This document shows, one piece after another, positions 1,238 through 19,849 of a stretch of 38,954 nucleotides of DNA. The notes beneath the pieces were generated by a model, which worked only from the letters and a program-made list of their open reading frames with translations, was not told the DNA's origin and made no database searches. Position 1 is the first letter of the stretch; each line of letters begins with the position of its first letter. The stretch is from NCBI GenBank assembly GCA_003218395.1, contig QHNJ01000136.1:1-38954 (forward strand). The letters run 5' to 3'. The DNA comes from Verrucomicrobiota bacterium. Lineage in GTDB: Bacteria > Verrucomicrobiota > Verrucomicrobiia > Chthoniobacterales > UBA10450. The position numbers were made by a program, and so were the translations under genes.

Positions 1238-2319
1238 ATGACAACTCAATCCATAACAAACTCGATTAACCGCTCGCCTTGGCGGCGCGCGTTCCTTTTC
1301 ATCTCACTAGTGCTCGTCTGCGCCGCAGCCTACGGTCCGGCACCTGCAGCCTGCGCACAAGGGATCACGTGGACGCCGGCAAATCCCATGAATAAGGCAC
1401 GCGGATTCTTCGCAGCCGGCGAGCTGCTGAACGGCAATGTCTTGGTGGCCGGCGGATTTGACGGGAGTATGGCCAATTTCATCTTCCCGGACGCTGAAAT
1501 TTACAACTTGCATACAGGGGCGTGGACACCGATAGCGCCGATGAACACGGCACGTGCGGCGCCCGGTGCAGTCCGACTAGAGGACGGTCGGATAATGGTA
1601 ATTGGCGGAGCTGATGAGAACTTCAACTTCCTTGATAGCGCCGAAATCTACGACCCGAGCACCGGTACCTGGTCATTTACGGGCTTGATGAATGAGCCGC
1701 GCTTCGAGGACTTCACAGCAGTACTGCTGCCCGGGCGCAAGGTCCTCATTGCAGGCGGCTTTGGACCCCCGTTCGACGCACTGAGCTCCGCCGAGATCTA
1801 CGATGAGGCGACCAACACCTGGACTCCGACGGGAAGCATGAACGTCGCCCGTGGCGAGTTTGCGTCGGTCGTGCTCCACGATGGCCGCGTTTTGGCTGTG
1901 GGAGGCGTTGCGACGGAGTTCTGCAGGACGGCAGGGTGTTGGCCGCCGGCGGGGGTATGGGAGATGAAGAGCTGCCCCGGTATGCCTCGGCAGAGATCTT
2001 CGATCCCCACACGGGGCAGTGGACTCCGACCGGCGCGATGACAGCGCCTCGCAGCGAAACTGAGTATGCCGTGGTTCGTCTGCCCGACGGTCGGGTGCTG
2101 GTGCCAGGGGGGCACACAGCCTTCCAAACGCCGGTGTCAAGTGCCGATCTCTACAACCCGAGAACCGGGACCTGGTCTGCGGCCGGCTCCATGAGTGTCG
2201 TTCGCGCCGGTCACTCCTCCATCGTGCTGCGTGGTAATCGCGGCGTGCTGGTGATGGGAGGGTTGGGCCCGGATGATCAAACAACTACAGCCAGTGTCGA
2301 TATTTTCCGAACCCGCTGA
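1238..2319 (+). pseudogene. Secreted Kelch-repeat protein, interrupted by an internal frameshift
   Basis: The gene starts with a signal peptide (hydrophobic core around residues 17-32, cleavage after CAQ near residue 41). Kelch-type repeats of about 50 residues follow, each with a G-RVL-x-GG strand, a SAEIYDP-type strand and a TWTPTGSM-type strand. Frame 1 is good up to about 1908 (DGRVLAVGG), then becomes nonsense. The Kelch pattern resumes in another frame from about 1915 (LQDGRVLAAGGG) and runs to the stop at 2319. Two consecutive GG strands abut, so most of one repeat appears to be missing and the frame is lost. A galactose-oxidase-like beta-propeller is the expected fold. As written it would give a truncated 267-residue product. 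An assembly error is possible. Confidence 0.8.
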
Positions 2320-2355
2320 CGCCGGTAGCTAAACAGCCAGCCGCAATTCGCAATC

Positions 2356-2390
2356 AGCCGTCATGCCTCACAGCCTGGCGGCTTTTTGTT
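2356..2390 (+). terminator. Intrinsic terminator after the Kelch gene
   Basis: An 8-bp stem (AGCCGTCA at 2356-2363 with TGGCGGCT at 2376-2383, one wobble pair) is followed directly by a T-run at 2383-2387. It lies about 37 bases after the Kelch stop. This is the clearest factor-independent terminator in the window. Confidence 0.7.
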
Positions 2391-2525
2391 TGCGCGGGCA
2401 AGGGTCGACAACTTTACGTAAGGGCGGCCGCAGCTCGCACTTTTGCCCCCTTCGTGTGCACTCTATTGAGAGGGGAAATTACTCGGACCGAGCCGGACAA
2501 GCACGTTCCCTCGGAATAAGCAAAG

Positions 2526-2558
2526 ATTAACCACGAAGAACACGAAGAATCTGCTGTA
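2526..2558. repeat. CACGAAG-type interspersed repeat, copy 2
   Basis: Two CACGAAG/ACGAAGAA units followed by GAATCTGCTGTA, closely matching 723-764. It lies about 90 bases upstream of the intact pcm. Confidence 0.6.
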
Positions 2559-2572
2559 TCGTACAGATAATC

Positions 2573-2611
2573 CGCTGCGGCATCCGGTCGGCGCAGCGCG
2601 CCGACCCTACC
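2573..2611. repeat. Palindromic dispersed repeat (type B), copy 1
   Basis: It contains a 9-bp perfect stem (2586-2594 with 2598-2606) around an AGC loop. Its reverse complement recurs at 15599-15637, with 2583-2611 identical to 15599-15627 and only two mismatches over 39 bases. It lies in the leader region of pcm. Confidence 0.8.
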
Positions 2612-2645
2612 TTTCGCTTTAGGCGCGTGCGCGTTATCATTTGCT

Positions 2646-3362
2646 ATGCGACGGGTTGCACAATTTCTGGTCCTTGCCGCGATTGCTGCGGCCGGTTGCG
2701 GACAAAAACCCACAGCAGCATCCGATTTTGCAGCGCAGCGCCAGCGCATGGTAACGGAGCAGTTGAAGGCGCGCGGGATCAGCGACGAGCGTGTCCTTAA
2801 CGCGATGAACAAAGTGCCACGGGAAGAATTTGTTCCCCCGGACTCGCGAGCTGGGAGTTATGAAGATGGGCCGTTGCCCATCGGTTACGGTCAAACGATC
2901 TCGCAACCGTACATCGTGGCGTTTATGACGGAACAATTGCGGTTGAAACCGAGCGACCGCGTTTTGGAAATCGGGACCGGCTCTGGCTATCAGGCGGCGA
3001 TTTTGGCCGAGCTCATGTCGCAAGTTTATTCGATCGAGATCGTCGAGCCGCTGGCGAAAAACGCCGAGGCGACGTTGCAACGCCTCGGCTACGAAAATGT
3101 GCACGTGAAGATCGGCGACGGTTACAAGGGCTGGCCGGAAGCCGCACCATTCGATGCCATTATTGTGACCTGCGCGCCGGACAGAGTTCCGCAGCCGCTG
3201 GTCGATCAACTCAAAGACGGCGGGCGCATGGTTATTCCCGTCGGCGACCGAATTGCTCAGGAGCTCTACCTGCTCGAAAAGAAAAACGGCCAACTGAAAC
3301 AAAGCGCCACGTTACCGGTGCGTTTTGTGCCAATGGCGAGGGAAGCGAGCGAGCACAAATAG
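2646..3362 (+). CDS. pcm: Protein-L-isoaspartate O-methyltransferase, exported lipoprotein form
   Basis: The enzyme methylates L-isoaspartyl residues in aged proteins using S-adenosylmethionine, starting their repair. The SAM-binding motif I VLEIGTGSGYQ spans residues 107-117. The substrate-side motif GYGQTISQPYI (80-90) and the C-terminal VRF strand are also typical. The 238-residue length fits a catalytic domain plus a leader. Unlike the cytoplasmic E. coli enzyme, it begins with a basic N-terminus, a hydrophobic stretch and an AAGC lipobox-like site (Cys18), suggesting an envelope-located lipoprotein. A diverged fragment of a homologue lies at 764-857, across the Kelch gene. It is convergent with the secreted protein at 3455-4030, with a palindrome between them. 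Confidence 0.93.
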   Translation: MRRVAQFLVLAAIAAAGCGQKPTAASDFAAQRQRMVTEQLKARGISDERVLNAMNKVPREEFVPPDSRAGSYEDGPLPIGYGQTISQPYIVAFMTEQLRLKPSDRVLEIGTGSGYQAAILAELMSQVYSIEIVEPLAKNAEATLQRLGYENVHVKIGDGYKGWPEAAPFDAIIVTCAPDRVPQPLVDQLKDGGRMVIPVGDRIAQELYLLEKKNGQLKQSATLPVRFVPMAREASEHK

Positions 3363-3417
3363 AGCATCGGCGAGCCGACTGTAGTGGCGGGCGTGCCGTC
3401 CGCATTCTAAACAACCT

Positions 3418-3440
3418 GCGGCTGACACAGCCGCCTCTAC
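3418..3440. repeat. Palindromic repeat (type C) between convergent genes, copy 1
   Basis: A 7-bp perfect stem (GCGGCTG 3418-3424 with CAGCCGC 3428-3434), loop ACA, then CTCTAC. The same stem and CTCTA tail recur at 23048-23071. It sits in the 3'-3' gap between pcm and the 3455-4030 gene and could act as a two-way transcription end point, but it has no T-run. Confidence 0.65.
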
Positions 3441-3454
3441 AGGCTCAATCCACC

Positions 3455-4030
3455 TCACTTGAGCGCGGCGAGTTTTTCCAGATCGACGCGCTTAACCCAT
3501 CCCTGTAATTCCTTGGGATCCTGGTTTTGCAATTCGATCTGAAGGAAATAACGATTGGCGATCATTACCCAAAGAGTGGCGTGTTTAGTGTCCTTTTCGA
3601 ACGCCTCGAAACCGGGATTGCCATTGATTGTGACGGACTTGCTATAGCCTTCGCTGGTTTCGCTGCTGTTATTCCACGCAGCGGTCGTCGCGCTGACGTA
3701 ATCCGGGTTCGCGACTGAATCGAGTATGCTGATCGCCGCGGTAGGAACATTGTCACCTTCGCCTTTTCGGTAATCACGATGCACGTTTGTGAGTCTGAAT
3801 CCGCCGACGTCCTCCGTCGAGCCCTCCGGCTTATCAGCAGTCCAGCCCTGGGGCGCGTCTGGCAAAATGGGGAGCAATTTCTGATAATCGACGGCGTCCG
3901 GCACAAGAACCGGCTCGTTCTGGGCGTACACCGCGCTAATCCCAAAACTGATGAGCACTGTCAGCGCAAGGAATCTAGGACATGCAGCAGAGCAACATTG
4001 CTGCCGACAAACGAGAGCCGTTGGTTTCAT
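3455..4030 (-). CDS. Secreted protein of unknown function
   Basis: A 191-residue protein with a Cys-rich basic start, a hydrophobic core (about residues 20-34) and an AVYAQ signal-peptidase-like site near residue 36. I do not recognise the family. The mature part has a QGWTADKPEG motif near its start (about 61-70) and alternates short strand-like segments (FRLTNVHRDY, AAISILDS, YSKSVTINGNPGFEAFE, ATLWVMIANRYFLQIEL). This suggests a small mixed or beta-rich domain that binds something in the periplasm. It has no catalytic motif that I can see. It is convergent with pcm and its start faces the start of the glycosyltransferase gene at 4156, so the two genes share a short divergent promoter region. 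Confidence 0.75.
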   Translation of the reverse strand: MKPTALVCRQQCCSAACPRFLALTVLISFGISAVYAQNEPVLVPDAVDYQKLLPILPDAPQGWTADKPEGSTEDVGGFRLTNVHRDYRKGEGDNVPTAAISILDSVANPDYVSATTAAWNNSSETSEGYSKSVTINGNPGFEAFEKDTKHATLWVMIANRYFLQIELQNQDPKELQGWVKRVDLEKLAALK

Positions 4031-4155
4031 GCGAGCCCAGTTACGCGCGATTCAGGTTTACCGTACTCGATTGACTTTGCCGAGCCCGTTTGTCAAGACG
4101 CGGTTGCATGAGCGTATTGGTAGGGCGCAACCAAGCCTGGGCTAAGCGAAGTCGA

Positions 4156-5625
4156 ATGGGGGCGCGCCGAACGAGCAAATTTGTGATCGCGTTGTCGATC
4201 CTTGCCGTTGCGGTGCGGCTCTTTTCGATTAATCAGCCATATATCGACCGCTGGAGCTGGCGACAAAGCGATGTCGCGGCGATTGCGCGCAACTTTAACG
4301 AAAACGGCTTTCATTTTGCCTATCCGCAGATTGATTGGGCAGGCGGCGCGCCTGGATACGTCGGAACGGAATTTCCAATTTTGCCGTTTCTCGCAGCCAT
4401 TTGTTACAAGATTGCCGGCGTTCACGAGTGGATTGGGCGAAGCCAGGCCCTAATCTTCTTCACTGTTTCGCTGCCGTTTTTCTTTTTACTCGTGCGCGAA
4501 ATCTTCGGCGGCACGGCGGCGATTTGGGCAACATTCTTGTACAGTTTCGCGCCGCTGAATGTCTTCGCCGGACGCTCGTTCATGCCGGACGTCCCCTCGC
4601 TCAGTCTGGCGCTAATTGGCCTCTATTTTTTCGTGCGGTGGATCGACGATGAGACGCCGATGCTTTTCTTAGGGGCAGTTATTGCTATTTCATTAGCGCT
4701 TCTTATGAAATTGCCGAGTGCCGTCGTCGGGGCGCCGCTTTTGTTCCTCGCCTGGCAAAAGTGGGGCCGGAATTTTCTGAGACAGCAAGCGCTCTGGGTT
4801 TTCGCCGTGGTTACAATTTTACCTTCTGTCGCGTGGTACTGGCATGCGACTCAAATCGCCGAGAGATTTTATCCGCATCATTTCTTTGGCGAGGGCGGAA
4901 TCCGGATCGAGAGTTTCGCGTGGTACTGGAACATCATGGGGCTGACCGCAACATCGAGCCTCACGCCGATTCTCTCGATCATGGCGATCATCGGAGTGAT
5001 CCTCGCGCCCCGCGGGAGATATGCAGGACTTTTTCATTGGTGGCTTGGCGCGATGATCCTGTTCATCGTCGTAGTCGGCTATGGCAACCGCCACCCATGG
5101 TATCAGCTTCCGCTTGTACCGGTCGCTGCCGCTTTTGCGGGCGCCGCTTGCGCATTTATCGGATCGAAAATCTCTTCTTCGCGCGTTGCGATGATGACAT
5201 GGTCGATCCTGCTTGCGAGTTCGTTTGCAATTCTTGCTTACTTCTATGTGCGACCACTTTATCGATCCTCGGCCGCCCAGCTTCGCGATGCCGGTCTGGA
5301 ATTTAGGAAAAGCACAGCACCGGATTCGTTGATTATCGCAGCGGACAACGGCGACCCGACGATATTTTACTACGCAGAGCGGAAAGGTTGGCATTTTCTC
5401 GAGCAAGACGCGATTTACGATGGCAATCCGAACGATAGCCGGGAGGCAATCGTTGATCTTGAACGACTTCGTGGCCGCGGTGCTACCCACGTCGTTTTCA
5501 CAGCCAGTACATTTTGGTGGCTGGAGTACTATCCTGAATTCGCGCAGCGTCTCGCCGAAAACGCAACTCTGATGGAGACGACTTCAGAATTCAGAATTTA
5601 CAAACTGACCGCTGTAACAAAATGA
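4156..5625 (+). CDS. PMT/ArnT-like membrane glycosyltransferase
   Basis: A polytopic membrane enzyme of the dolichyl-phosphate-mannose/ArnT (GT-C) type, expected to move a sugar from a polyprenyl-phosphate carrier onto a protein or lipid on the outer face of the inner membrane. The first periplasmic loop has WSWRQSDVAAIARNF, matching the family's 'D/R-Q-x-D' signature with an acidic catalytic residue. The second loop has GRSFMPDVPSLSL, the usual P-D motif. About ten hydrophobic helices follow, then a soluble C-terminal domain (from about residue 390). Reading can extend upstream to a TTG at 4090 or an ATG at 4108. I prefer the ATG at 4156 because the extra 22 codons lie in repeat-like intergenic sequence. 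It is first in an operon with the permease (10-base gap) and the aminotransferase. Confidence 0.85.
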   Translation: MGARRTSKFVIALSILAVAVRLFSINQPYIDRWSWRQSDVAAIARNFNENGFHFAYPQIDWAGGAPGYVGTEFPILPFLAAICYKIAGVHEWIGRSQALIFFTVSLPFFFLLVREIFGGTAAIWATFLYSFAPLNVFAGRSFMPDVPSLSLALIGLYFFVRWIDDETPMLFLGAVIAISLALLMKLPSAVVGAPLLFLAWQKWGRNFLRQQALWVFAVVTILPSVAWYWHATQIAERFYPHHFFGEGGIRIESFAWYWNIMGLTATSSLTPILSIMAIIGVILAPRGRYAGLFHWWLGAMILFIVVVGYGNRHPWYQLPLVPVAAAFAGAACAFIGSKISSSRVAMMTWSILLASSFAILAYFYVRPLYRSSAAQLRDAGLEFRKSTAPDSLIIAADNGDPTIFYYAERKGWHFLEQDAIYDGNPNDSREAIVDLERLRGRGATHVVFTASTFWWLEYYPEFAQRLAENATLMETTSEFRIYKLTAVTK

Positions 5626-5635
5626 GACCTTAACA

Positions 5636-6955
5636 TTGGACGCTCCGAAGCCTCGCCGTCAGCTTGGATTATTCGACGCCACCATGATCGTAATGGGCGG
5701 CATCGTAGGCGCGGGAATCTTCGCGAATCCATCCGAGGTGGCACATCGTGTTCACACGCCATTCTTGATCCTCGGCGTTTGGACGCTGGGCGGGTTCATC
5801 GCAATGTGCGGCGCATTTATCTGGGCCGAGCTCGCCACTCGTCTCCCGGGAACAGGCGGCCAGTATCTTTACTTGCGCGAGGCGTATCATGCTTCAGTTA
5901 CGTTTGTGTATGGATGGGGACTGCTGCTGGTCACGCAAACCGGCGGCATGGCCGCGGTGGCGGTTATTTTCTCATCTTACTTTCGTGCGCTCACGGGAGC
6001 ACTTTGGAGCGACAGCACGATCGCGGCCGTGGTGCTGCTGGTGTTGACTGGAATTAACTGTCTGGGAGCACGTGCCGGCAGCAACGTGCAAAACGTTCTT
6101 ATGTCGTTGAAGATTGCGGTGATTGCGGCACTCGTGATGCTTGGAGTCGCGCTTGGCGGAGGGTCTCTCAAATCCGGGCCATTGCTTGCACAACCGGTTT
6201 CATTCGGGCTTCTGAAAAGCATCGGCGCTGCCATGGTTCCCATTGCCTTCGCCTACGGTGGATGGCAGACCGCCACTTTTGTTGCGGGTGAAATGCGCGA
6301 TGCGCGGCGCGATTTATCACGCGGGCTCCTGATGGGAGTGGCCGCTGTTGTCGCTCTGTATCTCGCAGTCAATCTTGCATGCCTGCGTGTGCTCGGTCCA
6401 GCCGGCCTCGATGCAACAACGACTCCGGCTTCTGATGTAATGCGGATCGCGCTGGGCAAGCGCGGGGCGCAATGGATTGCCGCCGGGATCGCAATTTCGA
6501 CACTCGGCTTCCTCAGCCAAAGCATGCTGACCGCTCCGCGTGTGTACTACGCGATGGCCCGTGACGGACTTTTCTTTCGAAGCGTCGGCAGCCTCTCGCG
6601 ACGGTCAAGAGCGCCCGTCATTGCGATCGTCCTTCAAGGGATAGCAGCGACGATCATCGCCTGCTCTGGAACATATGGCGAGATTTTGAACTTCGAAGTG
6701 ACCGTTGATTTCATTTTTTTCGGAATGACCGCGTCATCGCTCTTCATTTTGCGCTGGCGGCAGATCGGAGCGGACGCCGCAATTTACCGCGCGCCGGGAC
6801 ACCCATTTACCACGATCCTGTTTGTATTGTCCTGTGCGGGAATTGTCGGAAGCGCCATCGTTGCGTCACCCGCTAATAGCGCAATCGCATTGTGCATCCT
6901 TCTGGCGGGCCTCCCGGTTTACCATTATTGGAGCAGATTCAGAGGAACCTATTGA
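5636..6955 (+). CDS. APC-superfamily amino acid permease
   Basis: A 439-residue, roughly 12-helix inner-membrane transporter. Helix 1 carries the LGLFDATMIVMGGIVGAGIF signature, whose unwound G-x-G segment binds the amino acid backbone in LeuT-fold APC carriers. Helix 6 (SIGAAMVPIAFAYGGWQ) has the matching substrate-site glycines. The best start is a TTG at 5636, because the next Met lies inside helix 1 and would destroy the signature. It begins 10 bases after the glycosyltransferase stop, and its TGA overlaps the ATG of the aminotransferase by one base (TGATG), implying translational coupling. The substrate cannot be read from sequence; the linkage to an aminotransferase suggests amino acid use. 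Confidence 0.9.
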   Translation: MDAPKPRRQLGLFDATMIVMGGIVGAGIFANPSEVAHRVHTPFLILGVWTLGGFIAMCGAFIWAELATRLPGTGGQYLYLREAYHASVTFVYGWGLLLVTQTGGMAAVAVIFSSYFRALTGALWSDSTIAAVVLLVLTGINCLGARAGSNVQNVLMSLKIAVIAALVMLGVALGGGSLKSGPLLAQPVSFGLLKSIGAAMVPIAFAYGGWQTATFVAGEMRDARRDLSRGLLMGVAAVVALYLAVNLACLRVLGPAGLDATTTPASDVMRIALGKRGAQWIAAGIAISTLGFLSQSMLTAPRVYYAMARDGLFFRSVGSLSRRSRAPVIAIVLQGIAATIIACSGTYGEILNFEVTVDFIFFGMTASSLFILRWRQIGADAAIYRAPGHPFTTILFVLSCAGIVGSAIVASPANSAIALCILLAGLPVYHYWSRFRGTY

Positions 6956-8034
6956 TGAGACACAAGCATTCTGACTACATGCATTGGTCCAAGACGCAGA
7001 GCCGCGCGCGGTTCAATCTCGCAACCAGTGGCGTGGCCGCATTTCCTCTTCGCGAACTGCCGGTGGACCTGATGAAACTCGAAATTAATGGCGACAACAA
7101 TTACGGCTACGCGCCTCTGCAGGCCGCCATCGCTGAGCACCATGGCGTCGATCCCGAATGCGTAGTGGAATCCGCCGGCACTTCTATGGCGAATCATCTC
7201 GCCATGGCTGCGATCATTGAACCAGGCGATGAAGTTTTAATCGAGCAACCGGCGTACGGTCCGATTCTCGATGTCGCCCATTATCTGGAAGCGAAAGCGA
7301 AACGCTTCCTGCGCACCGAAGAAAATGGCTGGGCAGTTGATCCAGGGGAGATTCGCCGTTGCGTCACGGAGAAGACGAGGCTCATCGTGATCACGAATCT
7401 GCACAATCCAACGAGCATGCTTACCCTCGATTCGGTTCTTCGCGAAGTTGGCGATATCGCGCGCAGTATCGGAGCGCTCGTGCTGGTAGATGAGGTTTAT
7501 CTGGACGCGGTTTACGAGGACACGCCCCGAACATCATTTCATCTCGGCCCTGAGTTTGTGGTGACCAGAAGTTTAACAAAAGTTTATGGCATCAGCGGCC
7601 TACGCTGCGGATGGATTCTGGCGCGTCCTGATCTCGCGTGGAAGATGCAGCGTCTGAATGATCTTTATAGCGCGACGTCGGTTTATCCGGGCGAACTTCT
7701 GGGCGTCGCAGCATTCCAACATTTAGATCTGCTTCGTGAAAGAGCGCGCCGAATCGTGGAAGCGGATCGCAAATTGCTTCGCGATTTTCTGGCGCAGCAG
7801 CCCGCCCTTTCAACTGTGCCAACGGATTGGGGCGCAACCTCATTGGTGCGATTGCAGAATGGAAAGGTTGATATTTTCCTGGAGCAGTTGCGATCCGATT
7901 TCGATACTTCGGCAGTCCCAGGCCGTTTCTTCGAGATGCCCGATCACTTTCGCATCGGCATGGGTGTGAATACGGAAATGTTCGCCGAAGGTTTGAACCG
8001 TATTGGTCGCGCACTCGGAAGAGAAACAGCTTAA
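6955..8034 (+). CDS. Class I/II PLP-dependent aminotransferase
   Basis: A 359-residue fold-type I aminotransferase. It has the SAGTSMAN cofactor phosphate-binding turn (73-80), the NLHNP motif (148-152), the LVDEVY aspartate that contacts the pyridine nitrogen (D179), the SLTKVYG Schiff-base lysine (K209), and a late FRIGMG segment with the carboxylate-binding arginine. Reading can be extended to 6892, but the ATG at 6955 is preceded by AGAGGA at good spacing and overlaps the permease stop, so I use it. The substrate is unknown: the protein resembles aspartate/aromatic-type enzymes and MalY-like relatives. A diverged copy of its last 25 codons lies at 9714-9790, beyond the secreted-protein gene. 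Confidence 0.92.
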   Translation: MRHKHSDYMHWSKTQSRARFNLATSGVAAFPLRELPVDLMKLEINGDNNYGYAPLQAAIAEHHGVDPECVVESAGTSMANHLAMAAIIEPGDEVLIEQPAYGPILDVAHYLEAKAKRFLRTEENGWAVDPGEIRRCVTEKTRLIVITNLHNPTSMLTLDSVLREVGDIARSIGALVLVDEVYLDAVYEDTPRTSFHLGPEFVVTRSLTKVYGISGLRCGWILARPDLAWKMQRLNDLYSATSVYPGELLGVAAFQHLDLLRERARRIVEADRKLLRDFLAQQPALSTVPTDWGATSLVRLQNGKVDIFLEQLRSDFDTSAVPGRFFEMPDHFRIGMGVNTEMFAEGLNRIGRALGRETA

Positions 8035-8145
8035 GTCATGATGCCGGTACTTGGAAAGGATCGAACTCCGGACATTCAACACCTAAAGTCCTGCCGAGTC
8101 GGAGTCCTGACGTCCTTCGGTTACAGCTGATAGTTCAACGTAAGG

Positions 8146-8354
8146 CTATGGGCGCGGCGGCCGGGTGGGCCGCGGCCTCGGTATTGGCTTCAGCCTGGCA
8201 GTGGGGCGTGGGCCTGGCTGTAGGCGTAGGATTGGCTGTTGGTGTAGCACCGAGATGTGGGCGTGGGCGTGGGCGTTGGGTCGGAGTCGCCGTCGGTGTC
8301 GCCGTAGGAGTTGTCGTTGCAGCGAGGGTCGGCGTTGATAGAGAAGTGGCCTGG
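8146..8354 (-). pseudogene. Decayed Thr-Pro-rich tail sequence
   Basis: Low-complexity DNA built on GGCGTN-like hexamers on the plus strand. On the minus strand it encodes Thr-Pro runs (TTTPTATPTATPT, then ATPTANPTPTARP) in one frame. The ending PIPRPRPTRPPRP plus TAG at 8148-8146 is in another frame, and the upstream gene ends in a third. This looks like the Thr-Pro/Arg-Pro C-terminal tail common in secreted proteins of this group, broken by several indels. No intact gene can be drawn. The stretch 8035-8145 has nothing recognisable. Confidence 0.5.
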
Positions 8355-9386
8355 TTATTCCCCAACGGCGGGGAACCTCACTCTCGCATCATTGGAGCAG
8401 GTCGAGGTGCCAGCTTCACACACCCGATACGTGTAGCGAGCCCGGCCGGTGTCGCCGGTGGAATCGATATAGTCTCCATCGTTCGCCGTTGTCACGATCA
8501 GCATGCCATTGCGGTAGACGTCGATGTTGCCCGAGGTTGCCCCGCTCCAGGTGAGACGCACCGTATTTATTCCCCCCACCTTGCGCCCCGCCGCGCTGAG
8601 CGTGATCGGTTCAGGTGTAGGTGTCGGTGGAGGCGTCGGTGTGGGCGTTCCTGAGAAGTGGCACCAAACAATGTTGGTTGTGTCAACGCGCCAGCCTTCG
8701 CTCGAGCCAGTGTTATCGCTCGCCATCCGCCAACGCAGCACCGCATTCGAAAGCTCTGGCGGCAGGTTCACTACCGTCGTAATAAAGCCTTCCGAGTTCC
8801 CGCTCCACGCTGGACGACCGGCGATCGGACTGCCTCGGTCGGTCGCAATCGTACGGTTGTAACCACCACCCTCAAAGGGATCCACCTCTGATGCTTCAAG
8901 GTTGACGTTGTGCCGGAATGTCAACCGCACGTACCAGGATTCCGTGGCGGAAACGCCTGGCGCATCGAGGTACTTGTCGCTGATAACAGGCGGATCATTG
9001 ACCCACGCTGCATTAGGTGCCGTATCATAGGGCGGACGCGGCAATCCAGAATCCGAAGTTTGCCATAAAACGCCATCGGGATCGATCCGATTGAACGCCG
9101 TCCAAAAAGGGGGCAGATCCGGTGGGGTCACGTCATCGAACCTCTCATCCAAGATCGTGATCAAGGTACCGTTGCACGGCGGAGGTGTAGGGACCGCCGC
9201 GGCAGAAATATCCATTTGGCCCCAGCTATCGTCTTCAGGAGAAGTCGACTCACCTGCGCGTTGGGCAATTGCGCTCGAGGAGCCGCTCTCTCCTAATACG
9301 GCTATGCCGGCTGCAACAAAGAAGAGTGAGCAAAGAGCATTCCGCAATCGCGACCGCGTGAATGCGCTTTTTGGATTTGTCATCAT
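8355..9386 (-). CDS. Secreted protein with MAM-like domain, Thr-Pro linker and FN3-like domain
   Basis: A 343-residue protein. The signal peptide's hydrophobic core is at about residues 18-31. A beta-sandwich domain (about 72-245) starts with the ERFDDVTPPDLPPFW motif seen in many secreted MAM/jelly-roll proteins. A TPTPTPPPTPTPEP linker spans about 247-260. A C-terminal FN3-like module (265-343) carries VRLTWSGA and YRNGMLI strands and ends in a Cys pair. The N-terminal domain looks too short: between NLEASEVDP (162-170) and GGGYNRTI (173-180) I would expect a further 25-30 residues containing the GGVLEI strand. It has a likely role at the cell surface or in the medium; no enzyme motif is visible. 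It runs opposite to its left and right neighbours. Confidence 0.8.
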   Translation of the reverse strand: MMTNPKSAFTRSRLRNALCSLFFVAAGIAVLGESGSSSAIAQRAGESTSPEDDSWGQMDISAAAVPTPPPCNGTLITILDERFDDVTPPDLPPFWTAFNRIDPDGVLWQTSDSGLPRPPYDTAPNAAWVNDPPVISDKYLDAPGVSATESWYVRLTFRHNVNLEASEVDPFEGGGYNRTIATDRGSPIAGRPAWSGNSEGFITTVVNLPPELSNAVLRWRMASDNTGSSEGWRVDTTNIVWCHFSGTPTPTPPPTPTPEPITLSAAGRKVGGINTVRLTWSGATSGNIDVYRNGMLIVTTANDGDYIDSTGDTGRARYTYRVCEAGTSTCSNDARVRFPAVGE

Positions 9387-9545
9387 AGAGTTCCTGTCCC
9401 GCCGTTTTTACCAGAAGTACTTAAAACCGTGAACATTTTCCGGCAGCTTTCACGATGGAGGCCCATGCTCTGTCTCTCATAACTCCGACTTGCGAGCCGA
9501 GCACGGATCTTAGTTGGGTGGCGCAAGGAATGTCGAGACTTTTTG

Positions 9546-9563
9546 GTTTCTCTTTTGAGAAAC
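9546..9563. repeat. Perfect hairpin in intergenic region
   Basis: GTTTCTC and GAGAAAC pair perfectly around a TTTT loop. The stretch from 9387 to 9597 holds no gene that I can support apart from this hairpin. Confidence 0.5.
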
Positions 9564-9597
9564 TACGGACGACGCTGACCTGCGAAGCCGCAACCCA

Positions 9598-9711
9598 AGT
9601 GGCGCGGACTTCCGAGTCTGCCGTGGCGCGGGTTTCCAAACCTGCATGGCGTGCCACTTCGCGCGGCTTGCCGATTTAGAAATCGGCGACACAGCAGGTT
9701 TGGAAACCTGC
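9598..9711. repeat. Array of short palindromic units
   Basis: At least four small self-complementary units in a row: GGACTTCCGAGTC, GGTTTCCAAACC, GCCGATTTAGAAATCGGC (8+8 bp arms) and GCAGGTTTGGAAACCTGC (8+8 bp arms). The first two are each preceded by a GTGGCGCGG-like spacer. The second and fourth share the same arm sequence. It resembles a REP-type element made of related hairpins and lies just before the aminotransferase remnant. Confidence 0.75.
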
Positions 9712-9713
9712 TC

Positions 9714-9790: not shown

Positions 9791-9906
9791 GCCTGCGATA
9801 GTTGCTTACGTCTGCGCCTGATCAACAATCGCTCCCGCTAGAACGGAGGTCCCCGCCGGCGAGGATCGTCTCACCGGCGGGAATCGAACAGAGGAGCGAA
9901 GCGGAG

Positions 9907-11125: not shown

Positions 11126-11137
11126 AGGAAGAATTAG

Positions 11138-12844
11138 GTGGCGCAGGAAAAAACAAAGATCGAGGACTATGCGTTTCTCAGCGATACCCAAACCGGCGCG
11201 CTGGTGAGCCGGGACGGATGCATCGATTGGCTTTGCTTTCCGCGGTTCGATTCGCCAGCGTGCTTTGCCTCGCTGCTGGGTGATACGAAAAACGGACACT
11301 GGCGGTTCTTCCCCGAGGAAAAGATTGAAGAGACGCGTCGCCGGTACCGTGGAGACTCGCTTATCCTCGAAACGGAAATTGAAACAACGAACGGTGCCGT
11401 GCGTTTGATCGATTTCATGCCGCCGCGCGGCGAGAACCCGGACATCATCCGGATTATCGAAGGGTTGCGCGGCAAAGTTCCAATGCAGTTGGAGTTGATC
11501 ATCCGCTTCGATTACGGACAGATCGTTCCGTGGGTGCGGAAAGGCCATGGCGGGCTCGAAGCGATCGCAGGCCCCGATGGTTTGATCCTGCGAACGCCGA
11601 TTGAAACCCGTGGCAGAGATTTGACCACGGTTGCACTGCGCGACACCGAAAAATATTGGAGAGCGTGGTCGGAGCAATTTCGAGGACAAGGCGAATGGCG
11701 CGACGCAGTGATGCGCTCGCTGATCGTGCTCAAAGGCTTAACCTATGCGCCTACTGGTGGCCTGGTCGCCGCGGCTACGACGTCGTTGCCTGAACAAATC
11801 GGAGGCCCGCGCAACTGGGACTATCGCTACTGCTGGTTGCGCGACGCCACTTTCGCTTTGCTCTCGCTGTTGCGCTCCGGTTATCGCGAGGAAGCCAAAT
11901 CCTGGCGGGAATGGCTTTTGCGGGCCGTCGCTGGAAGCCCGGCGCAGATGCAGATCATGTACGGTGTTCGTGGCGAACGCCGGCTCGACGAACTCGAAAT
12001 TCCATGGCTCTCCGGGTACGAAGGGTCCGCGCCCGTGCGCATTGGCAATGCCGCTTCCAATCAATTTCAGCTGGATGTTTATGGCGAGGTGCTGGCAGCC
12101 ATGTGGCAGGCGGATCGCTTGGGAATCAAATTGGAAGAACCCGACTGGGCCCTGATGGTCCAGCTAATGAAATTCCTGGAATCAAACTGGCAGAAACCAG
12201 ACGAAGGAATCTGGGAAGTGCGTGGTGGACGAAAAAATTTCACGCACTCGAAAGTGATGGCGTGGCTGGCATTCGATCGCGCAGTAAAACTTGTTGAAGA
12301 CTGCGGATGCGCAGCCGGCGAACATTATGGTCGTTGGCAAAAAATTCGAAACCAGATTCACGCGGAAGTCTGCGAGCGTGGATACAACGCGCGGAGGAAA
12401 GCTTTCACCCAGGTTTACGGCTCCGATGCCTTGGACGCGAGCCTTCTTACCATACCGCTCGTCGGCTTTTTGCCCGCGACTGACGAACGTGTCCGCAACA
12501 CGATCGAGGCCATCGAACGCGAGTTGATGCAGGATGGTCTCGTCCTGCGTTACCGGCCGGAGCAATGCGGCGTGGACGGATTACCGGGTCGGGAAGGGGT
12601 TTTTATTCCTTGCTCTTTCTGGCTGGCCAATTGCTGGCATCTCCTTGACCGAAAGAAAGAGGCGCGTGAATTGTTTGAGCGCTTGCTCGACCTGCGAAAC
12701 GACCTGGGCCTTCTCTCCGAGGAATACGATACGCGCGAGAAACGGCAGCTTGGAAATTTTCCGCAGGCGTTTTCGCACGTTGCGCTCATTCGTGCCGCGC
12801 GAATCCTGCGCGACGAAGACGTGCTGCTCCGTTCAGAAGATTAA
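11138..12844 (+). CDS. Glycoside hydrolase family 15 (glucoamylase/trehalase-like), with probable internal deletion
   Basis: A 568-residue cytoplasmic (no signal peptide) GH15 enzyme hydrolysing alpha-glucosidic bonds, probably trehalose or maltodextrins. It starts with a GTG preceded by GAGGAA. The N-terminal beta-sandwich begins IEDYAFLSDTQTGALVSRDG (8-27). The (alpha/alpha)6 barrel has NWDYRYCWLRDATF (226-239), the general acid in GIWEVRG (E360) and the general base region LLSEEYD (E528/E529). Near residue 166 the text jumps from the strand DLTTVA straight to LRDTEKYWR. Family members that I recall have about 30 more residues here (a strand with FVLTWFPSH). The gap is in frame. Its stop shares the TTAA tetramer with the convergent CNNM-CBS gene. 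Confidence 0.88.
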   Translation: MAQEKTKIEDYAFLSDTQTGALVSRDGCIDWLCFPRFDSPACFASLLGDTKNGHWRFFPEEKIEETRRRYRGDSLILETEIETTNGAVRLIDFMPPRGENPDIIRIIEGLRGKVPMQLELIIRFDYGQIVPWVRKGHGGLEAIAGPDGLILRTPIETRGRDLTTVALRDTEKYWRAWSEQFRGQGEWRDAVMRSLIVLKGLTYAPTGGLVAAATTSLPEQIGGPRNWDYRYCWLRDATFALLSLLRSGYREEAKSWREWLLRAVAGSPAQMQIMYGVRGERRLDELEIPWLSGYEGSAPVRIGNAASNQFQLDVYGEVLAAMWQADRLGIKLEEPDWALMVQLMKFLESNWQKPDEGIWEVRGGRKNFTHSKVMAWLAFDRAVKLVEDCGCAAGEHYGRWQKIRNQIHAEVCERGYNARRKAFTQVYGSDALDASLLTIPLVGFLPATDERVRNTIEAIERELMQDGLVLRYRPEQCGVDGLPGREGVFIPCSFWLANCWHLLDRKKEARELFERLLDLRNDLGLLSEEYDTREKRQLGNFPQAFSHVALIRAARILRDEDVLLRSED

Positions 12845-13715
12845 ACTCGCACCTGGCTGGAAGAAACGAGCCGACGGATTAAATCCTCAATCGTGACAAT
12901 TCCATGAAATTTTTTGTTTCTATCCAGAACTGCAGACAGCCCGAGTCGAGCGGCACGTAATTGTTGCACAATCCGATAAGCCGGCTCCTCCTCACTGGTC
13001 GTTACCATGCGCCGGATATAGCTGCTCAACGGCTTGTCTCCGTTTTGCTCGAGCAGAATATCGAGGACGTTGACCAATCCAGCCGGCTGCCCCTCCGGCG
13101 AAACGACAGGCAGGCGATCAAGGCCAGACGAACTGCTAAGCTCCAGCGCCTCTTGAATTGACGCGCCCGGTCGCAACGCAACGACTCTTGGCAAAGGCAG
13201 CATCACATCGCGCACTTTGACGCCGCGAAAGTCAACGACGTTGTGAATCATCGCACGCTCGGTGGCGGTGAGAGAGCCCTCGCGTTCGCTTTGTGCTGTG
13301 ATTTGCTTCAGCTCTTCGCGCGCGGCAAAAAGCCAGGACCGCTTCGACGCGCGCCGCGGCAGCAGCAGTTTAACTACACGTGCGCCAATTTCGAGCACCG
13401 GTAACGAGAGGATCGAGACGAATTACAGAACGCAATTACCAGTGCGATAAAGAACCCTGCATACCCAAACGAATGGACCAACTGCCGCGTCAGCAAGAGA
13501 AGGCCGAGTATGTCGGCGGCATTTGTGATAAGCAAAACGGTTACCATCAGGCGTTCGGGGTGTTTTAATAACCGATTGAGCCGAACCGCTGCTGGCACTC
13601 GGCGTTTTACATTTTGCCGCAAGCGCACTGGATCGATCGAAAGCAGACCGCTTTCGATTCCGTTGAAGAAGAACGAAACAATCCAGCAACAGAAAATGAT
13701 GAAGGCGATCATCAT
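12841..13715 (-). pseudogene. CNNM-CBS (CorC/HlyC-like) membrane protein, frameshifted by a deletion
   Basis: Two overlapping frames together make one protein. Codons from 13715 give an N-terminal DUF21/CNNM membrane domain (FFFNGIESGLLSID, then helices) that goes out of frame after VIAFC and stops at 13374. A second frame resumes at SILSLPVLEIGARVV and continues through a CBS pair to 12841. Compared with the intact paralogue next door, which has VVLLC followed by about 22 residues including the conserved D-x-V-P-K motif, only 11 bases remain at the junction (about 13411-13424). About 55 bases are therefore missing and the frame is broken. The start overlaps the paralogue's stop by 4 bases (ATGA), so the two formed an operon. 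No CorC/HlyC C-terminal domain is present. Confidence 0.82.
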
Positions 13716-15004
13716 GCCGCAGCACTGGTATGATCCGGTGTTTCCTGAATCCCACCGGTTGTTTTCTCCAAGAGAACTTCCTCGATTCTTTTCCGTCCCG
13801 CGCGGCGCACCGTAATTGCGAGTCGCGGAATCTCGAGCTTCGTGCCAGAAGGTGGCAAATAACCTAACCGCGTGAATACGAATCCTCCGATCGTGTCTAT
13901 CCCTTCAGCATCGATTCGAAAACCGAGGTATTCACTTAAATCGTCGAGGCGCGCGTTTCCGCTCACCAGAAATTTCCCGTTCTCGAGCGGCTCGATGTAA
14001 AGATCGACATCACCGCGGGGGAGCGCGTCGCTGAGAATCTCTTCCACGATGTCCTCCATGGTGATGATCCCTTCAGTTCCGCCAAATTCGTCAACTACCA
14101 CAGCCATTCCCTGGGGGTGAGTCAGAAACAACTTGAGCAGGTCCAATGCACGCATTGTCTCGGAGACAAAGGAGGGAGCGATTAATTTTTCCGTGTAATG
14201 TTCCGATGGATCGAGCAAGAACAGTTTCACATCGACGATCCCGAGAATTTGGTCGGGCGTGTCGGCATAAACCGGAACGCGCCGATGGCGTTTCTCTTTT
14301 AAACGCGCGATCGCTTCTTCATTCGTCAGATCATCTGGCAGGGTGAAGCTATCAACGCGCGGCGTCATGCAATCCTTGGCCGTTTTGTCGCCGAGTTTGA
14401 TGATTTCCTCGATGATCTCGGCTTCTTCTTCATGCAATGCGCCTTCCTCCTCGCCCATTTCAAGCAGGGTCCGCAGTTCTTCATCGCTCAGGCGTGGCCG
14501 CGTGCGCAGATGCTCAGGGGTCAGAAGGTCGATAATAAAAGTGCTGATGCGCTCGAGTCGGTGACCGACCCGCTCAAGCAGCGGTATCGAGATCTGCAAC
14601 GTCAGTGCTCCAACTGAAGAAAGCCGATACGGTGCGGAAAGCGCCAGGAGCTTCGGAACCAAATCGCAGAGCAGGACGACAATTGCGAAGATGACAATTC
14701 CTGCGACCCATTGCGGAATGCGTGGCGAGGCAAATGGACCTTCCCATAAGAAGACCAGACACAAAATTACCAGTGGCACTTTCACCAGCCCATCTCCCAA
14801 AAGCAGGACGTTCAGAACATGACGCGGATTTTCCCGGAAGAGCTGTATGAATCTGGTGAGCCCGGCCCGATGCTCTTCCAGGCGGCGAAGTTGATGCGCC
14901 TTGAGCGAGAAAAGCGCCGTCTCCAGCCCCGAAAAAAGCGCGGAACAGAAGATCAAAATTGAGATAACGACCAGGAGAATGCCCAAAGCCGCGCCTGTCA
15001 TCAT
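13712..15004 (-). CDS. CorC/HlyC-family transporter-like protein (CNNM + CBS pair + CorC_HlyC)
   Basis: A 430-residue inner-membrane protein of the CNNM/CorC group, linked to magnesium or cobalt efflux. The N-terminal DUF21/CNNM domain (about 1-180) has the FSGLETALFSL signature in helix 1 and DLVPKLLAL in a later helix. Two CBS domains (about 210-330) follow, with TPRVDSFTL and GIVDVKLFLLD, and the DEFGGTEGIITMEDIVEEI motif (about 311-329) typical of the second CBS. The C-terminal CorC_HlyC domain (about 345-425) carries GNARLDDLSEYLGF and GGFVFTRLGYLPPSG. It is complete and serves as the in-window reference for its broken neighbour. Confidence 0.92.
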   Translation of the reverse strand: MMTGAALGILLVVISILIFCSALFSGLETALFSLKAHQLRRLEEHRAGLTRFIQLFRENPRHVLNVLLLGDGLVKVPLVILCLVFLWEGPFASPRIPQWVAGIVIFAIVVLLCDLVPKLLALSAPYRLSSVGALTLQISIPLLERVGHRLERISTFIIDLLTPEHLRTRPRLSDEELRTLLEMGEEEGALHEEEAEIIEEIIKLGDKTAKDCMTPRVDSFTLPDDLTNEEAIARLKEKRHRRVPVYADTPDQILGIVDVKLFLLDPSEHYTEKLIAPSFVSETMRALDLLKLFLTHPQGMAVVVDEFGGTEGIITMEDIVEEILSDALPRGDVDLYIEPLENGKFLVSGNARLDDLSEYLGFRIDAEGIDTIGGFVFTRLGYLPPSGTKLEIPRLAITVRRAGRKRIEEVLLEKTTGGIQETPDHTSAAA

Positions 15005-15129
15005 CTATGGTAGCACAGCCATGCTGGCCGTGTTAATTCACCGGCCTGAGCCAGGCGGCATGTTTCCCTGAAGAAGCAAGTACGTGCTCGTTTGCTCATC
15101 ATCTGAGCCACAAGCAAATTAGACTCTTC

Positions 15130-15603
15130 ATGAACAAAGGCGAGAGGATTTCGCGATTCGTCGCAGAGTTGGCCAACGGGGATGTCGATCTAACCCAGAC
15201 CGATGTCGCAAAGCATTCATTTTATCGGGCATTTTTTTTGTGCTGGAACGAGCAACGTTATTACCAAGCGCACGATGTTCTTGAGCAGCTTTGGCTGAAG
15301 GACACCGAGTCGCGCGACGCGGATTTCTTCAAAGGGTTAATCCAGGCGGCCGGCGCTTTCGTTCATCTTCAAAAGCGATTCGAATACCCATCGCACGCGA
15401 AACACGGGAGACGCTTATCGCCGGCCGTGCGTTTGTTTCAGCTTGCGGAAAAGAACTTGTCGATCTTCGCCCCTCGACATCATGGATTGGATGTCGCCGC
15501 GTTCTGTCAGCTCTTGCGCGCATACGCCGATAGAATCGTGGCCGCTGAGTATAAAGCGAATCCTTGGTCGCCAGAGACCGCGCCAAAACTTGAATTAGGG
15601 TAG
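15130..15603 (+). CDS. DUF309-family protein
   Basis: A 157-residue all-helical protein. The DUF309 hallmark is clear: YYQAHDVLEQLWL (about 48-60) followed by DADFFKGLIQAAGAFVHLQKR (about 67-87), the 'H-x-x-L-E-x-x-W' and 'K-G-L-I-Q' motifs. The family forms a small helical bundle of unknown biochemical role. Its final Gly codon and TAG stop are formed by the first bases of the type-B palindromic repeat at 15599-15637, so the repeat appears to have set the current C-terminus. It is convergent with the TSUP transporter. Confidence 0.85.
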   Translation: MNKGERISRFVAELANGDVDLTQTDVAKHSFYRAFFLCWNEQRYYQAHDVLEQLWLKDTESRDADFFKGLIQAAGAFVHLQKRFEYPSHAKHGRRLSPAVRLFQLAEKNLSIFAPRHHGLDVAAFCQLLRAYADRIVAAEYKANPWSPETAPKLELG

Positions 15604-15652
15604 GGTCGGCGCGCTGCGCCGACCGGACACCGCAGCGCGGCGTCCCTACCTC
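15599..15652. repeat. Palindromic dispersed repeat (type B), copy 2, between convergent genes
   Basis: A 9-bp stem (15604-15612 with 15616-15624) around GCT; the reverse complement of 2573-2611. A second, related GC-rich half (CCGCAGCGCGGCGTCCCTACC) follows at about 15630-15650. It fills the gap between the DUF309 and TSUP genes and overlaps both coding ends. Confidence 0.8.
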
Positions 15653-16383
15653 GTAAAAATCAATTTTATTCCGGCAATCGTTAGGACAACCGCCAGCAGA
15701 AGAGAGATCGTGCGAACCGGAAAATGGCGGCTGCCGAGATGGGAACCAAAAATGCCACCGATTATCGCAGCGCCGCCCAGAACGACGCCGAGCGACGGAA
15801 TGGAATGAACTGCGGTAAAATAGCCGGCAAGCCCCGAGATCGAGTTCACCAGAATGAACAGCGCCGAAACAGCTGCCGCTTGTCGAATATGCGCCCAGCG
15901 ACAGAATAGCAGAAGAGGCGTGAGAAATATGCCGCCACCAGTTCCAGTCAGGCCGGAAAGAAATCCAAGACCTGTTCCAACGCCGATCGCAGCCGGTTGC
16001 GATGGGACGAGAAGTTTTTCGGGATCGTTGCGCCGGAAGATCAAGCGCGCCGCAGAGAAAAGCAGCACCAGCCCGATCAGAATCCTCAAGACGGAAGTCG
16101 ACGGTTGCAGGTGGCCGCCAAAATACGCGGCCGGAATCGATAGCAGCGCGAACGGCCAGAATAATTTCCATGCGAAATGTCCTGCGCGCCAAAATTGGAA
16201 CGCGCCAATGGACGCAACCAGAATGTTGAGCACCAGCGCAGTCGGACGAATAATCGTCGGCGCGAGCCCGAACAGCGTCATAGTCGCGATGTAACCCGAT
16301 GCACCGGCATGGCCCACTGATGAATAGAGGAACGCGATCAACCCGACGGCGAGGAAAAGCAAAACGAGAGGCACGTAGTCCAT
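15646..16383 (-). CDS. TSUP (TauE/SafE) family transporter
   Basis: A 245-residue inner-membrane protein with about eight helices in two repeated halves. Each half has the family's glycine-rich helix: [12 protein letters not shown] near the start (about 22-33) and [20 protein letters not shown] in the middle (about 129-148). The family exports or imports sulfite, sulfonates or similar small anions; the substrate cannot be told here. The first repeat has the G-H-A-G-A-S-G variant seen in many soil bacteria. The start is an ATG at 16383, just inside the inverted repeat region. It is divergent from the DUF255 gene. Confidence 0.9.
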
Positions 16384-16387
16384 CTTT

Positions 16388-16492
16388 TGTCATGTCGAGC
16401 GGAGTCGAGACATCTCTCACTCGTATGAGAATGCCGTCGGTAAATCCCCGCTAAGAACAGCAAGAGATTCCTCGACTTCGCTCGACATGACA
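16388..16492. repeat. Inverted-repeat element with 30-base arms
   Basis: Two arms of about 30 bases (16388-16417 and the reverse complement of 16463-16492) share TGTCATGTCGAGCG and GTCGAG cores and enclose about 45 bases. No coding capacity. It resembles a small MITE-like or REP-pair element lying between the divergent TSUP and DUF255 genes. Confidence 0.75.
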
Positions 16493-16633
16493 AGAAGGGT
16501 GATGCCTCGCACTTGGATGAAGGGTGCGGAGCGAGGCTTCAGTAGCGGCGGACAACTGGCAATGCTTGATGATTCTTCACAAATGGGAAACCTGCCCCAC
16601 GAATTGGCAGGCACAGCTTCGGGCGCGGTCATA

Positions 16634-18847
16634 ATGACAAGCCGCTTCCGCTTTGGATTTCTCGCGCTAACGTGGTTAGTGACGTCAACTCATAATCTCG
16701 CTGGCCCGACGCCAGCGCCTCCCGAGCACACGAACCGGCTAGCGCACGAGAAGTCGCCTTATCTTCTTCAGCACGCGCACAACCCAGTCGATTGGTATCC
16801 GTGGGGCGAGGAAGCTTTTGCCAAGGCGCGCCGCGAAAACAAACCGATTTTTCTCTCGGTCGGTTATTCCACGTGCCACTGGTGCCACGTCATGGCCCAC
16901 GAATCCTTTGAAAGCGAAGAAGTGGCCGCCATTATGAATCGCGAATTTGTGAACATCAAAGTCGACCGTGAAGAGCGTCCCGATGTCGACCGCGTTTACA
17001 TGACCTTTGTGCAGGCGACGACCGGCGGTGGCGGTTGGCCAATGAGCGTTTGGTTGACGCCGGACTTAAAACCGTTCGTTGGCGGAACGTACTTTCCACC
17101 GGAGGACCGATATGGTCAGCCTGGCTTCAAGAAAGTGCTCGAACGGATTGCGGCTGCCTGGAAGCAAGGTCACGACAAGATCGCCGAGCAAGGTGGAAGG
17201 ATCGTCGCGGCGCTGCGTGAATCCCAAGCGGGAGCAGCAGGTGAAAGCAAAATCGATGCAAAGATTTTAGACGCAGCGTATGAGCAGATTGCCAGCAGTT
17301 ACGATCCGAAGGAGGGCGGGTTCGGCAATGCCCCGAAATTTCCGCGACCGGTCACGCTCAATTTCCTAACCAGATTTTACGAGCGCTGTCCTTCGTCCGA
17401 GTCTGGTAAGCGTGCGCTGGAGATGGATCTATTCACGTTGCGCAAGATGGCGGCCGGCGGCATGCACGATCATCCCGGCGGCGGTTTTCATCGCTACTCG
17501 GTCGATCGTTACTGGCACGTGCCGCATTTCGAAAAAATGCTTTACGATCAGGCCCAACTCGCCGTCGCCTATCTCGACGCGTTTCAAATCACGCAAGATC
17601 GACAATATGAATCAGTCGCGCGCGACATTCTCGAATACGTCGCCCGCGATATGACGTCGAAGGACGGCGGATTTTTTTCCGCCGAAGATGCCGATAGCCT
17701 TTTCGAGCACGGCAAACCCGAGCACGGAGAAGGCGCCTTTTATATTTGGAGGAAAAAAGAGATCGACGCCGTCCTCGGTGATGCCGCTGACATTTTCGAT
17801 TTCCATTACGGCGTGCAATCACACGGGAATGCACCTGAAGGCAGCGACCCACAGGACGAGTTCCGCGGCAAAAATATTTTGATTGAACGCCACGCGATTG
17901 CTGAGACCGCGCAACATTTTAAGAAAAGTGAAGACGAAGTTCGTCAATCGCTCAGGCGCTCCTGTGACAAGTTATTTTCGAGCCGGGCCAAACGGCCGCG
18001 ACCACATCTCGATGACAAGATTATCGCTGCCTGGAACGGCCTGATGATTTCAGCGTATGCGCATGCTGCACAGGTCCTCAACGAATCGCATTATCCGGAA
18101 ATCGCTACGCGGGCCGCGAATTTTATCCGAAAACAACTTTGGGATGATTCACGTAGAATACTGTTTCGCAGTTATCGCGAGGGGCGCGGCGATATCGAGG
18201 GGTTTGCTGACGATTATGCATTCGTGATCCAGGGCCTTCTTGATCTTTACGAAGCCTCATTCGATGTCGAATGGCTGAAGTTCGCGACACAGTTGCAGGA
18301 GACGCAGGATGGCTTGTTCATTGACGGAAAAAACGGCGGCTACTTCAGCACCAGCGGGAAGGACAAAAGCGTGTTCATTCGGATGAAGGACGACAACGAC
18401 AGCGCGGAGCCGGCGTCCAGCTCGATCGCGGCGCTGAATCTTTTGCGGCTGGCGCAGTTCCGCGATGACAAACAATTGGAAGATCGAGCGAAGAAAACAA
18501 TCGATGCATTTGCGCCGACCCTTTCCCATTTTGCGAGCGCCATGCCGCAAATGTTGGTTGCGCTCGATTTTAGCGTGAGCAAGCCGCGACAGATCGTGAT
18601 CGCCGGGAAGAAGGACGCACCCGACACGAAAGCACTGTTAACGGAGGTACGTCGCCATTTCCTGCCGAATACAATTCTGCTTCTGGCAGATGGCGCGGAA
18701 GGTCAAAAATACCTTGGCGAAAAAATCGAGGCGATCCGCGCGATGTCGATGGTCGATGGCAAACCAGCGGCTTACGTGTGCGAAAATTTCACCTGCAAAG
18801 CGCCCGTGACTGATTCCAAGCAACTTGCCGAGTTGCTTAAGTTCTAG
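16634..18847 (+). CDS. DUF255 thioredoxin-fold protein (YyaL/SPATA20-like), probably exported
   Basis: A 737-residue protein. After a hydrophobic leader (about residues 7-20) the N-terminal thioredoxin-like DUF255 domain starts with [21 protein letters not shown]. It carries the STCHWCHVM active-site-like pair (C81, C84), followed by [18 protein letters not shown]. An (alpha/alpha)6 six-hairpin domain makes up the rest, with [25 protein letters not shown] and FFSAEDADS motifs shared with the family. The biochemical role is not established; it is likely redox or sugar-related. The frame is open back to 16487, but that part overlaps the inverted repeat, so the ATG at 16634, which begins the leader, is preferred. 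Confidence 0.87.
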
Positions 18848-18875
18848 ACACGTTCGCCATGGGGAGCGCTGTTCC

Positions 18876-19442
18876 CTATTTGCTGCCCGGTTTGACGGCC
18901 GGGATTTTCGCGAGATCGGGCGGGAGATTGTCCGCGGGAAAGGTCTCAACATTCATTTCAACCAGGCTGACAAACAGACAGCCAAAATCCGGTTTCGATT
19001 GGCCGCTGCGGTCAACAATCACGCCTACCGCAGAAATGGTCGCGTCGTGCGCTCGAACGATGTCGATCGTTTCCTGGACGCGTCCGCCACGGGTCACCAC
19101 ATCTTCGACGACGATGAATCTTTCATTCGGCGAAATTTGAAATCCCCGCCGAAGGACAAGTTTGCCCTCCTCTTTCTCGACGAAAATGTGGCGTTTACCT
19201 AACGAACGGCCCACTTCCTGACCGACAATGATCCCGCCGAGGGCAGGGGAGATGACCGTATCACAGTCAAATTTGCGCAGTTTGTCGGCGAGCCATCCAC
19301 AAACTTTTGCGGCAATTTCGGTGTGCTGAAGGAGCAGTGCGCATTGGAAATATTGCCGGCTGTGCAGACCGGAGCGCAAAATGAAATGGCCATCGAGTAA
19401 TGCGCCGGTTTTGCGAAAAAGTGCAAGAAGATCGTCTTTCAT
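18876..19442 (-). CDS. pyrE: Orotate phosphoribosyltransferase
   Basis: A 188-residue enzyme joining orotate to PRPP to make OMP in pyrimidine synthesis. The PRPP-binding loop reads [18 protein letters not shown]. The N-terminal [21 protein letters not shown] and the flexible-loop segment before GKLVLRRGF are typical of the family. The Met at 19442 is the natural start; extending to 19481 would add residues encoded by an intergenic repeat. The gene's stop lies 28 bases from that of the convergent DUF255 gene. A broken ridA lies just upstream on the same strand. Confidence 0.92.
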
Positions 19443-19444
19443 TG

Positions 19445-19505
19445 GACGAGAACTGGCAGGCGGGACGCCCGCCAGCCCCACAGGCAGGATGCCCGTGCTA
19501 CTCGA
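19445..19505. repeat. GC-rich palindromic repeat between ridA and pyrE
   Basis: GGCGGGACGCCCGCC forms a 6-bp stem, and CAGGCAGGATGCCCGTGC follows as a second degenerate unit. It resembles the other short intergenic repeats of the window. No gene is seen in it. Confidence 0.55.
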
Positions 19506-19849
19506 TTAGCCGGAGGTGTCATATGCCGTTTGCCCGGCCTCCTCCGCGACGGCAACAACTTCGATTTCCACGTTGGCTCCCTTAGGCAGCGCGGAGACTT
19601 GGACGGTGGAACGGGCTGGGGGATCTTGCTTGAAATGCGAGCCGTAGATTTCATTGACCGCTTGAAAACGGCTGCGATGTTGTCGAGTACGCGCCGGGTC
19701 TGGGCCGTGATGTCTCCAGTAACAATCTGGCCCGATTTTGGATCGAGCGGAATTTGACCGCTGCAAAACAGAAACCGTCCGCTGCGCACGGCTTGCGAAT
19801 AGGGGCCAATCGCCGCTGGCGCCTCGCTGGTAGAAATAATCTTCTTCAT
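19506..19849 (-). pseudogene. ridA: RidA-family protein, frameshifted by an internal deletion
   Basis: RidA hydrolyses reactive enamine/imine intermediates. The first half is normal: [32 protein letters not shown] and [12 protein letters not shown]. It then leaves frame. In the next frame the second half follows at once: [32 protein letters not shown] and the end. The segment that normally lies between (about 24 residues, containing the 'VVKTTVFL.DM.DF' strand and loop) is absent. The junction is at about 19660-19668. The conserved PPARSTV arginine is present but out of frame with the start. As written the product would be non-functional unless the break is an assembly artefact. Confidence 0.85.

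Follow-up and report, generated by a model that had tools for sequence, protein, structure and literature searches.

The five short internal gaps that we examined in a Verrucomicrobiota draft genome are very probably errors of short-read metagenome assembly, in which the scaffolder would have underestimated the distance between neighboring contigs, and not changes in the organism; this judgment draws on sequence comparisons. The window (the whole stretch of DNA that was analyzed, 38,954 nucleotides) is one contig, QHNJ01000136.1 (C131), of a metagenome-assembled genome, or MAG, that we call G000 (335 contigs that total 2.95 Mb, with a completeness of 87.8%). G000 is related to Candidatus Udaeobacter. 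A preliminary description of the window had reported short internal deletions in five genes, three of them frameshifted and two in frame. All five junctions are present, within about 20 bases of where that description put them, and its division by frame was right as well.

Alignments to relatives confirmed that each of the five genes is without one internal piece that the relatives have. The gene for a kelch-repeat protein (1238..2319, forward strand) is split across two frames, with open reading frames at 1238–2041 and 1936–2319 and the junction at 1911–1917. Compared to genome G013, 100 bp are missing (103 bp compared to a more distant copy in G014), which breaks the frame; the intact gene in G013 matches Kelch_6 and Kelch_1 from Pfam. 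The gene for a MAM-like/FN3 protein (8355..9386, reverse strand) has its junction at 8876–8877 and lacks 81 bp, in frame. This size is the same relative to G003 and to G013, which are the only two relatives that cover the junction. "MAM-like" is the preliminary description's name, and the intact protein from G003 has no match in Pfam at a threshold of 1e-5.

The GH15 gene (11138..12844, forward strand) lacks 96 bp at 11631–11636, also in frame, and 25 of the 27 genomes that span the junction support the gap. The copy in G007 matches Glyco_hydro_15 and TREH_N. In three other MAGs from the same genus (loci L105, L117, and L113), GH15 is also broken near reference residue 207, with 56–59 bp, 34–37 bp, and a run of 53 N, respectively; these breaks are inside or beside the segment that is missing from the window.

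The CNNM-CBS gene (12844..13790, reverse strand) lacks 88 bp at 13428–13434, which breaks the frame, and 18 of 23 spanning genomes support this gap. The copy in G015 matches the Pfam families CNNM and CBS. Another contig, QHXH01000583.1 (L257), which is filed under the Acidobacteria MAG AA25, has a CNNM segment that is 89% identical to the window's, along with a match to GH15; this contig is probably misbinned.

Finally, ridA (19509..19849, reverse strand) lacks 69–70 bp at 19659–19667, with the frame broken, as supported by all six spanning genomes; the copy in G007 matches Ribonuc_L-PSP and TIGR00004. Short interspersed repeats are found at 19455–19501 and 19891–19923, with at least 10 and at least 8 further matches, respectively, in the same genome. 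We found no sharp coding gap between 20 and 32 kb of the window, as compared with G007 alone. The preliminary description had considered secA and pyrE to be complete; the genes taken as these align to residues 23–1029 of 1029 and 11–209 of 209 of the references from G007.

To see how common such gaps are, we aligned stretches of G000 with the loci of relatives that were found through DNA searches, and we used a script, identical for every genome, to identify sharp gaps of 20–500 bp that contain no N. The script also requires an open reading frame of at least 90 residues in the supporting genome, at least two supporting relatives, and support from 70% of the relatives that span the gap. For G000, 95.2 kb were testable out of 467.9 kb of sequence. 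These contigs are not a random sample: we met them in a search for repeats or in protein searches, or they are stretches that adjoin those.

The script found 10 sharp coding deletions in the 95.2 testable kb. The kelch gap is not among these 10, as just one of its two comparators belonged to the pool that the script used; with kelch, there are 11 events, each of 70–126 bp (70, 72, 81, 82, 84, 88, 88, 96, 100, 112, and 126 bp). The further gaps are on three of the four other contigs of G000 that were testable. Stretches with events were L263 (one in 13.3 kb), L266 (one in 14.2 kb), L280 (two in 12.3 kb), and L319 (two in 8.0 kb). The same script found no events in L264 (8.5 kb), L265 (6.6 kb), L268 (12.3 kb), or L269 (3.7 kb), and there were none in the stretches that we tested of contig C220 and part of contig C24. 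We considered whether the cluster is special to the window. The script found four events in 16.4 testable kb of the window and six in 78.8 kb elsewhere. This excess is mild, and it was because of its gaps that the window had been chosen.

Two of the sizes need comment. The gap in a phosphodiesterase gene (event e7, in L266) is 72 bp by the junction comparison and 73 bp by the script's median. About 240 bp downstream of it, at L266:3775–3781, this gene has a small change of frame, and our codon analysis divided the gene there instead of at the gap. For event e11 (L319:8040), the locus behind the 82 bp extends over just one flank of the gap; the size relative to G007 is about 83 bp.

The same script found no events in three control genomes: G007 (98.6 kb), G014 (69.0 kb), and G016 (100.3 kb). 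Because this amounts to zero events in 268 testable kb, the frequency of gaps in G000 is above what chance would give. G003 had two events in 57.6 kb (66 and 443 bp) and G008 had one in 14.0 kb (163 bp). The six remaining genomes had none in 53.7 kb altogether.

The gaps show little regard for the essentiality of the gene or for the reading frame: five of the 11 are in frame. We counted the slight excess over one third against an artifact. As for essentiality, rplJ, which encodes ribosomal protein L10 and is an essential gene, lacks 88 bp in G000 (junction at about 16956 of contig C24), and its frame is broken. The copy in G007 matches PF00466. The open reading frames around this gap read like rplA, rplL, and rpoB, and we take this gene to be rplJ ahead of rplL and rpoB. 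Similarly, the SMC protein is missing 28 residues just before its signature region.

How could an assembly lose so many short pieces? Runs of N suggest an answer. There are three of these in 428.9 kb of G000 beyond the window (149, 120, and 142 N) and none in the window. At L277:2150, a run of 120 N corresponds to 245 bp in G013, G014, and G015, which are the three genomes that matched both flanks among the eight searched. This run is 125 bp too short, an exact size that is the measure of a single N run. A run of 142 N lies within a PBP2 gene whose flanks stop near position 127 of TIGR03423 and restart near position 209. This leaves about 81 positions of the model, or ~243 bp, so by model positions the run is ~100 bp short. 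G003 has short runs of N as well (138 instead of 181, and 144 instead of about 166–168), and a run of 53 N in G018 has about the right length. One contig of G007 (L293, or G007:C11) is 244 bp long and consists solely of N.

We propose that the contig graph would have been broken over a short stretch during short-read metagenome assembly. The scaffolder would then have joined the flanking contigs by using read pairs, with an estimate of the gap that was about 100–125 bp too short. Where the true gap was less than about 126 bp, the estimate would come out as zero or negative, and the two contigs would be placed end to end with no N between them. If the shortfall is 125 bp, then smaller true gaps would close with no N at all, which fits the largest deletion, at 126 bp. 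That the joins stem from the scaffolding step is our inference. A constant offset would predict some runs of 1–119 N, and we found none in the 428.9 kb of G000, which counts against this proposal. A link to k-mer size (126 = 127 − 1) would be numerology without an assembly record, so we disregarded it. We also asked if hairpins or extreme GC content caused drop-out during sequencing. Compared to random windows, the 10 missing segments that we analyzed had mean ranks of 0.62 for structure and 0.60 for GC, so there is no excess of either.

The preliminary description had offered the collapse of strain variants by the assembler as one explanation. The assembly origin appears to be correct, and the joins look more like blunt joins at scaffolding gaps than like collapsed variants. 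Under the collapse explanation, the assembler would have chosen one path through a bubble of strains, or a minority strain that has the deletions. The available text of Chen et al. 2020 (PMC7111523) names coexisting strains as a main cause of fragmented assemblies, and the breaks that three other MAGs of the genus have close to this point of GH15 could indicate a variable spot. However, genuine strain variants would need a broken rplJ as well, and the GH15 and ridA queries each matched just one place in the bin. We consider this explanation to be very unlikely.

The other proposal was that the organism is really losing short segments through active deletion, as happens during genome reduction, so that the genes would be fresh pseudogenes or would encode shortened proteins. 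This is slightly less probable still. In its favor, the gaps are sharp and are far more common in G000 than in G007, G014, or G016. Also, CNNM-CBS has an in-frame stop codon at 13423–13425, three codons past the junction. This stop counts against an assembly artifact because a pseudogene might have one, but errors at the ends of contigs could also yield it. On the other hand, active deletion would have frameshifted rplJ and removed 28 residues from SMC beside its signature region, and the sizes are confined to 70–126 bp. Deletions in genome reduction have a wide range of sizes and spare essential genes, and decay follows. Like pseudogenes from genome reduction, the genes in G000 are broken and have recognizable halves, but in the genes that we tested, the decay is not seen, except for the one stop codon in CNNM-CBS.

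Specifically, there was no sign of relaxed selection beyond the break in the five frame-broken genes: pN/pS ranged from 0.16 to 0.35. The values before and beyond the break were 0.45 and 0.35 for kelch, 0.14 and 0.21 for CNNM-CBS, 0.16 and 0.24 for ridA, and 0.18 and 0.17 for rplJ. For a permease gene, the value beyond the break was 0.16; the value before the break was not used, as that part includes sequence 5' of the start codon. The substitutions thus show codons past the breaks that still appear to be conserved, which argues against active deletion.

The idea that the deletions are driven by microhomology, with direct repeats of 3–10 bases at the junctions, fared no better. We compared the ends of each gap with one to four relatives. 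With one relative each, the exact repeats were 0–2 bp in all 10 resolved events, with a mean of 0.6 bp, versus 0.72 bp for random junctions. With some other relatives, the repeats reach 3–4 bp for GH15 and CNNM-CBS. Overall, the repeats are at the level expected by chance.

Some open reading frames have private insertions of 57–120 bp instead: L312:2899, L352:1119, L113:11038, and L266:19513 (in G003, G014, G018, and G000). We inspected six of eight private insertions in these genomes for tandem duplication. The longest exact run was 13 bp, and none were clear duplications.

Another possibility is faulty merging or trimming of the reads ahead of assembly, due to false overlaps within read pairs, which would delete the middles of the inserts. 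This would likewise limit the size of the deletions. For false merging to occur, the reads must overlap by some ten bases, and the exact repeats at the junctions are just 0–4 bp; it also leaves the N run that is too short unexplained. We view false merging as highly improbable. The same is true of a lineage that carries hundreds of fresh blunt deletions of ~90 bp, made by machinery with a narrow step and affecting essential genes as well, while intact copies of the chromosome or coexisting strains supply the lost functions.

Returning to scaffolding errors, we examined whether gaps vary with the assembly method. Many of the relatives in the same genus are Verrucomicrobia MAGs from one study of grassland soil (isolates AVxx). 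According to the accessible portion of PMC6784897, this study used IDBA-UD, except that sample 14_0903_13_30cm was assembled with megahit and the IDBA-UD scaffolder. For the CNNM region, we used a test similar to the script but without the coding rule. It covered 68 loci: the window, 20 stretches, and 47 of 79 further loci, with 14 dropped as repeats of the stretches and 18 as too distant. Among 39 loci from the grassland study, there were seven events (24–163 bp) in 307.5 kb. There were none in 213.2 kb from 26 loci of other assemblies, and none in 16.5 kb from the two loci outside of either group. If the rates were equal, then the chance that all seven events would be in the IDBA-UD group is ~0.025. 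This contrast is suggestive only, and the shortest event (24 bp) may be natural. Also, the window, which was counted apart from these groups, had three events in 17.0 kb. This is far above the rate for the average IDBA-UD locus (seven in 307.5 kb), which we counted against an artifact.

Local assembly errors in MAGs are described in the accessible text of PMC7111523, whose authors suspect IDBA-UD assemblies to be especially prone to them; it ties its errors to IDBA-UD, and wrong Ns to CLC assemblies as well. As in G000, those errors at scaffolding gaps affect the insides of genes, with sequence that reads do not support and with incomplete or wrong protein-coding sequences. In contrast, the errors described there consist of such unsupported sequence and of Ns inserted where sequences truly overlap, while G000 has clean omissions of 70–126 bp that contain no N. 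The part of PMC11017572 on apparent pseudogenes that may be artifacts of sequencing or assembly similarly describes frameshifts that are possibly technical; in G000, the frameshifts are due to missing blocks that vary little in size. A limited literature search found no report on these gaps.

If the gaps are assembly errors, then the organism itself presumably carries the missing pieces. Extrapolating from six events in 78.8 kb, or from 10 in 95.2 kb, and bearing in mind that the sample is not random, the 2.95 Mb of G000 would have some 200–300 omissions. This makes gene models, counts of pseudogenes, and claims about the loss of genes or domains from the public genome unsafe. Blunt coding gaps of a narrow size, relative to relatives, could be a simple screen for other MAGs.
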